Below the pieces are notes generated by a model, which had not been told where the DNA came from, ran no database searches, and saw only the letters and a program-made list of their open reading frames with translations. Position numbers and translations under genes: made by a program. A DNA stretch of 64,000 nucleotides, from NCBI GenBank assembly GCA_002841155.1, contig PHEH01000004.1, positions 1 to 64,000 of the forward strand, read 5' to 3'. Below, piece after piece: positions 35,443 to 57,840 of this stretch (position 1 is its first letter; every line of letters starts with the position of its first letter). This stretch comes from Alphaproteobacteria bacterium HGW-Alphaproteobacteria-18. Its GTDB lineage: Bacteria; Pseudomonadota; Alphaproteobacteria; Caulobacterales; Hyphomonadaceae.

Positions 35443-35508
35443 CGTCACCCCGGAATTTGCGAGAGCAAATGTCCGGGGCCAGCGGCATCGCGTGAACCGG
35501 GGATGACG
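35443..35508. repeat. REP-like hairpin element
   Basis: CGTCACCCCGG...CCGGGGATGACG outer arms with inner ATTTGC-GAGA-GCAAAT hairpin. Confidence 0.75.
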
Positions 35509-35561
35509 GAACTGAAAGCCATGTTCTATACTGCGCGGGATTGAACAATGCCCCCAACCTT

Positions 35562-35679
35562 CGTCACACTCGATGGCCGAAAGGCCATCTGAGTGCCCAG
35601 CTCCTGCCATCGCCGCATGTGCCTGTGGCAGCGTTCGGAGCTGGGCACTCAGATGCGCTGTCGCGCATCGAGTGTGACG
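35562..35679. repeat. cloverleaf-like inverted-repeat element
   Basis: P1 CGTCACACTC/GAGTGTGACG; P2 GATGGCC-GAAA-GGCCATC; P3 TGAGTGCCCAGCTCC/GGAGCTGGGCACTCA; P4 GATGCGC-TGTC-GCGCATC. Confidence 0.85.
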
Positions 35680-35762
35680 AGGGGGCAGGGTTTGGTTCGG
35701 GGTGTTGGCGGGTATCGCTGTGCAAGTTCCGTTATGACGAACACGGAGGGGTTTGGGAGAAG

Positions 35763-36236: not shown

Positions 36237-36329
36237 CCGCGCTCCGCTTAACGGCACATCCTTCGACTTCGCTCAGGATGAGCCAGGTTGCAAGCGTAGT
36301 GAGGTGTTTTGGGTACGCCCCCATCCGTT

Positions 36330-36367
36330 CGTCACCCTCAGACGGGCTTTGCCCGTCGAGGGTGACG
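36330..36367. repeat. long hairpin between pepA and holC
   Basis: CGTCACCCTC-a-GACGGGC-TTT-GCCCGTC-GAGGGTGACG. Confidence 0.85.
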
Positions 36368-36386
36368 CGGATGGAGCGCGCGGCGG

Positions 36387-48464: not shown

Positions 48465-48634
48465 TTTCCCCCTCCACCCCTTCGGGGCACCTCCCCCGCT
48501 TCGCAGGGGAGGATGAGGTTGCACCGAGACGCCCTCTTGTCCTCCCCTGCGAAGCGGGGGGTGAGGCGGAACAGGCATCGCGCTGCGATGTCCCGCCGAA
48601 CGACGCTGCAACGCAGCGAGACGGAGGGGGGTGC
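48465..48634. repeat. REP/BIME-like composite repeat (order B-A)
   Basis: TTTCCCCCTCCACCCCTTCGGGGCACCTCCCCCGCTTCGCAGGGGAGGAT then inverted TCCTCCCCTGCGAAGCGG...GACGGAGGGG. Confidence 0.8.
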
Positions 48635-57701: not shown

Positions 57702-57840
57702 CTTCATCCTCCCCTGCGAAGCGGAGGAGGTGGCAGACGGCGTTCGCCGGCTGACGGAGGGGGCCTGCAACGGCGAAGTTTCCCCCTCCGCCCCTGCGGG
57801 GCACCTCCCCCGCTTCGCAGGGGAGGATAGAGTTGCGCCC
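57702..57840. repeat. REP/BIME-like composite repeat (order A-B)
   Basis: TCCTCCCCTGCGAAGCGG...GACGGAGGGGG then TTTCCCCCTCCGCCCCTGCGGGGCACCTCCCCCGCTTCGCAGGGGAGGAT. Confidence 0.8.

Follow-up and report, generated by a model that had tools for sequence, protein, structure and literature searches.

The window analysed here (a stretch of 64,000 nucleotides, taken as a whole) contains at 35562-35679 a member of a dispersed repeat family of Hyphomonas, in which the two hairpins facing each other almost never share the same stem. The element is probably a head-to-head pair of CGTC-tagged REP sequences whose halves fold on themselves and carry unlike stems, like-armed pairs arising but being lost as long hairpins. 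The rule of unlike arms is nearly absolute, and it extends to many stem types, which combine freely, as well as to genomes without detected SbcCD.

Read from the outside in, a unit of the family consists of the tag CGTC, a hairpin with the stem C-N-CTC-GAYSSSC or a variant of it, a loop of 3-4 bases, a return strand from which one T bulges, and the tail CCCA. The features of the window are as follows.

35562-35679, no strand assigned: whole element, a head-to-head pair of CGTC-tagged hairpin repeats with CGTC outermost at both ends.
35562-35599, plus strand: left unit, with tag CGTC, bulged hairpin CACTC GATGGCC GAAA GGCCATC T GAGTG and tail CCCA.
35572-35589, plus strand: left arm, stem type GATGGCC and loop GAAA, with no column pair having more than one mispaired cell in 35 copies.
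35590, plus strand: additional T, which bulges out of the left hairpin if the hairpin includes the N pair 35568-35594 (alignment columns 8-34, Watson-Crick in 35/35 copies with four pair types).
35600-35641, no strand assigned: central spacer between the units, mostly unconserved, with no selection visible on pairing across it.
35642-35679, minus strand: right unit, inverted, from the outside in tag CGTC, hairpin GATGCGC GACA GCGCATC and tail CCCA.
35652-35669, minus strand: right arm, stem type GATGCGC and loop GACA in the outside-in reading.
36329-36368, no strand assigned: single hairpin between holC and pepA, a collapsed relic of a full pair that three related genomes keep at the orthologous position.

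Among the inverted repeats of the window, the element is the longest, with arms of 62 nt that are 79% complementary, and the family model R1 matches it at 35561-35680 (117 bits, E 1.4e-24). The original prediction had described a cloverleaf here, and all of its stems were found letter for letter: the outer 10-bp stem CGTCACACTC (35562-35571) and GAGTGTGACG (35670-35679), the left side hairpin GATGGCC-GAAA-GGCCATC (35572-35589), the long central stem TGAGTGCCCAGCTCC (35590-35604) and GGAGCTGGGCACTCA (35637-35651), the inner stem TGCCA (35605-35609) and TGGCA (35626-35630), and the right side hairpin, GATGCGC-TGTC-GCGCATC in forward-strand letters (35652-35669). The flanking strands TGCCCCC (35549-35555) and GGGGGCA (35681-35687), suggested as an added outer stem, are also present, but they are private to the window copy and lie beyond the family boundary CGTC...GACG, outside which the other copies are nearly unconserved; this stem was therefore rejected as a component of the family. 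The window copy folds far better than shuffled sequences with both RNA (z -9.9) and DNA (z -10.7) parameters. As single-stranded DNA its predicted minimum-free-energy (MFE) structure is indeed the cloverleaf, whereas as RNA it is a single long rod in which the left and right arms pair together; a role of the element as RNA may exist. Nearby, at 35443-35510, there is a second CGTC-like hairpin (CGTCACCCCGGAATTTGC...GCAAATGTCCGGGG) with a 37-nt core that recurs in many Hyphomonas genomes, and two more near-perfect inverted repeats, based on CCTCCCCCGCTTCGCAGGGGAGG, are located at 57706-57828 and 48493-48560.

The homologous copies that the original prediction called for are dispersed across Hyphomonas and its family. 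The genome of the window has six full copies, and 11 of its 12 half-unit matches sit in head-to-head pairs. The element model matches 30 of 42 Hyphomonas genomes and 49 of the 105 Hyphomonadaceae genomes searched, in 5 of 10 genera, with copy numbers from none to about 30 per genome. Among named genomes, both-strand matches to the element pattern were limited to Hyphomonas and Hyphomonadaceae records, which places the window in a Hyphomonas genome; Rhodococcus and Arthrobacter gave single-strand matches, regarded as chance. Plasmid and viral collections contained no copy, and in an Rfam search of the window the element matched no curated model, the only hit being a tRNA. From 177 copies, 167 (334 halves) were parsed automatically; the 10 others were inspected by eye, and no like-armed copy was seen where two arms could be read. 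Conservation sets in abruptly with the C of CGTC, a C in 280/284 halves. Both halves have CCA after the hairpin in 133 of the 167 copies, as does at least one unit type of the window copy. The loops, on one strand of each half, have the form G..A in 241/334 halves and never T..C. By crude ORF calls, 121 of 129 placed intergenic copies lie between convergent (60) or codirectional (61) genes, and 8 between divergent ones.

The alignment of 35 copies points to selection for folding within each half. Cells were paired in 99.8% and 99.3% of cases in the two side hairpins, each of which had six pairs with compensated changes on both sides. When the hairpins are extended through N, both retain pairing in 35/35 copies, with three or four types of pair, whereas placing N in the outer or the central stem gives standard pairs in only 20/35. 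Over the whole set, N is Watson-Crick paired within its own hairpin in 318/334 halves; its pairing across the outer stem is limited to 49/167 copies. Pairing of the left arm with the right one, as in the rod, scored below all 500 shuffles. Pairing in the central stem was not better than in random re-pairing of halves within genomes, being slightly worse at some positions, and the outer CGTCA/TGACG hardly varies and thus is uninformative. The original claim that the side hairpins differ in sequence yet stay paired, as expected under selection for structure, was borne out by the covariation within each of them; the accompanying claim of a four-way junction as the conserved form was not, the outer and central stems having no support from covariation. 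Selection is visible in these sequences on two hairpins, each half apparently being selected to fold on itself, and not on the junction. The reading that suits the element best is that of two inverted REP hairpins forming a pair.

The hairpin sequences of the window copy differ in accordance with a family-wide rule and not by accident. The left and right stems are different in 166/167 parsed copies, while 19.5 +- 3.9 like-armed copies would be expected from global re-pairing of halves and 27.5 +- 4.3 from re-pairing within genomes, with a minimum of 11 in 10,000 trials. Since copies are not independent, the shuffle figures overstate the certainty, but the rule still holds when one copy is retained per combination per genome (1/112 alike vs 9.9 +- 2.7 expected). 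Stems at distance one are scarce too (4 vs 17.4 expected). In the sole exception, from G011, the like-armed halves differ at N, in the loop and in the tail. In a second genus together with one genome of a third, 0/47 copies were alike against 5.2 +- 2.0 expected. Perfect palindromes could be under-represented in some of the assemblies, which are short-read; single-contig genomes (G039 and G040) obey the rule as well. The search model, though built from unlike-armed copies, does not compare the two arms in its scoring, and the arms were absent from the founding pattern.

The same rule might result from inheritance, if a few unlike-armed master elements had spread. Orthologous copies do retain their arm types over long divergence, and arm types are common to paralogous copies. 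However, 46 distinct stem combinations occur over several genera, and the types combine in triangles (GATGGCC-GATGCGC in 28 copies, GATGGCC-GACGGGC in 9, and GATGCGC-GACGGGC in 9), yet a single alike pair is seen, which makes such a founder effect rather improbable. Two disjoint founder lineages of halves were likewise rejected, since they do not account for the rule when stem types form triangles.

What the unlike arms do to folding was predicted for the 167 copies using ViennaRNA with DNA and RNA parameters. As single-stranded DNA, the MFE structure is a cloverleaf in 145/167 real copies, in 107 +- 4 after random re-pairing of arms, and in 0/167 when either arm is copied over the other, all of these being rods; like arms are complementary by construction, so the zero is partly built in and the informative part is the excess of real pairings over random ones. 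With RNA parameters the cloverleaf numbers were 103, 74.5 +- 3 and 0, respectively. In these predictions, unlike arms keep two hairpins apart, as opposed to one hairpin of about 43 bp. The excess of cloverleaves in single-stranded DNA would also agree with a true four-way junction, in single-stranded DNA, a DNA cruciform or RNA, as the functional object with all four stems under selection, but we find this very improbable given the behavior of N and the central stem and the near-invariance of the outer one. The data support the notion of two hairpins barred from pairing with one another, but not that of a conserved four-way junction. The coincidence of the rule with the distinction between two-hairpin and one-long-hairpin folding turns an old question into a test of stability and activity of like- versus unlike-armed elements.

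A plausible course of events can be outlined for the preferred reading, that of a REP pair from which like-armed forms are lost. The element is a dispersed non-coding repeat, and most copies lie between convergent or same-direction genes. Exchange or conversion between halves would generate like-armed pairs, whose folding into a single long hairpin would cause their loss, be it through the instability of palindromes during replication or through failure of the long hairpin to function. Likeness is weakly avoided beyond the arms as well (N alike in 49 copies vs 66 +- 4.8 expected; z of -2 to -3 for the spacer), hence the arms may not be its sole target, and this fits palindrome instability. Within genomes there is no trade-off between the arm distance and divergence elsewhere (rho -0.09, p 0.30), although a simple threshold on the stability of the long hairpin predicts one; this result does not fit palindrome instability.

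In the survey of CGTC-tagged REPs by Di Nocera, De Gregorio and Rocco (2013; PMC3733652), the preference for heterodimers "has no obvious explanation", and protection from SbcCD was suggested. By that suggestion, like-armed pairs form long hairpins, SbcCD cuts them, and unlike-armed pairs survive. It is in agreement with the predicted folding of every copy with like arms as one long hairpin, with the references to SbcCD and deletion frequency in PMC3733652, and with the existence of collapsed copies. However, the distribution of the nuclease in Hyphomonas is patchy: SbcD is above the cut-off in only 4/42 genomes, and SbcC follows the same pattern, with the addition of G021 and, marginally, G011. 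Moreover, in 12 element-bearing genomes with neither SbcC nor SbcD above the cut-off, 0/88 copies were alike against 19.9 +- 3.6 expected. Clearance by SbcCD alone is therefore, in our opinion, improbable. Since diverged SbcCD-like nucleases could escape the SbcC and SbcD models, other nucleases could act, and slippage needs no nuclease, these data count against SbcCD as the sole agent but leave palindrome instability in general untouched. Hyphomonas thus offers a natural system in which the suspected nuclease appears to be absent.

Loss of a half is illustrated by the site between holC and pepA. Three related genomes (G023, G010 and G017) have a full pair there, while the genome of the window retains just the outer CGTCAC fused to the right hairpin, the outcome of a deletion between short repeats; other genomes carry unrelated repeats at this site. 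The hairpin at 36329-36368 is thus a pair collapsed into a single hairpin by deletion between short direct repeats, and single hairpins are, at least sometimes, relics of pairs. A separate repeat, ATCCTTCGACTTCGCTCAGGATGAGC (36258-36283 of the window), is also found at the holC-pepA site in relatives, being inverted in G011. At the site of the window element itself, G023 has a half relic and G017 has nothing. In several species, a conserved motif, CACGGAGGGGTTTGGG (35736-35758 of the window; 2114-2136 of L166), follows elements or half relics at this locus.

It is from dispersal only that we infer mobility. Occupancy of sites varies between species, but no clean empty sites were found among those compared, the flank search being confounded by flanks that in some species are repeats themselves. 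Flanking target duplications, proposed originally as a mark of mobile copies, did not emerge, with no excess of boundary direct repeats over 142 copies. The usual REP transposase is RAYT, and a search for it (Y1_Tnp) found none in the copy-rich genomes G000 (that of the window), G023, G017, G010 and G034, nor in G039 and G040. The element could be a miniature transposon, mobilised by an enzyme that would recognise its two unlike ends, each folded, in the single-stranded form of the DNA. Dispersed copies with bulged hairpins, the predominance of G..A loops on one strand per half, and the wide range of copy numbers are compatible with this possibility; the lack of Y1_Tnp, of a clean empty site and of target duplications speaks against it, although IS200/IS605-like and RAYT enzymes, which recognise hairpins in single-stranded DNA, produce no such duplications. 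On balance we find a miniature transposon doubtful. It is also unlikely that activity requires unlike arms, with an enzyme other than RAYT acting on the single-stranded elements only if they form two orthogonal hairpins side by side; if this were true, CGTC REP pairs would constitute a separate class of mobile or processed elements with their own enzyme. In genome G039, the pair lies within a dispersed repeat of ~0.6-1.0 kb (L252-L258) with a small possible reading frame that has no Pfam match.

Among known repeats, the Hyphomonas element fits the CGTC-tagged REPs, which include dRS3 of Neisseria and RPE-4 and RPE-6 of Rickettsia (PMC3733652). These occur mostly in Alphaproteobacteria, between convergent and unidirectional genes, and form mostly head-to-head dimers, commonly heterodimers, with spacers of 20-100 bp; the outer CGTC tag, the CCA tail, the head-to-head dimers with spacers in this range, the gene context and the lack of a dedicated transposase are shared with the Hyphomonas element (PMC3733652). 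Hyphomonas is not named in the main text of that survey. The stem of the described REPs has 8-9 bp and starts with complementary A-T pairs, and the loop has 4-5 nt (PMC3733652), whereas the Hyphomonas stem is longer (12 paired positions and a one-base bulge), the loop has 3-4 nt, the first stem position in the types near that of the window is A opposite C (relatives such as L109 and L112 do have CGTCAT...ATCCA), and heterodimers are nearly absolute with many stem types. Thus the tag, the tail and the pairing match but the longer bulged stem does not, and we class the element as a head-to-head heterodimeric variant of the CGTC-tagged REPs. In P. fluorescens, single REPs were also reported as relics of pairs, and the GTAG-1 dimers of P. 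putida are mostly homodimers (PMC3733652). MITEs with terminal inverted repeats are similarly palindromic, intergenic and 110-180 nt in size, but for the Hyphomonas element neither a target duplication nor a parent transposon was found, and its visibly selected parts are the two hairpins. REPINs and the RAYT-linked GTAG REPs (PMC3116915) also consist of two inverted REP hairpins with a spacer and are dispersed and extragenic; unlike them, the Hyphomonas element has no GTAG tag, and its copy-rich genomes lack RAYT. Finally, in contrast to the BIMEs of E. coli and the GTAG-3 dimers, the Hyphomonas halves differ in their stems, and the several stem types can be combined freely with one another.
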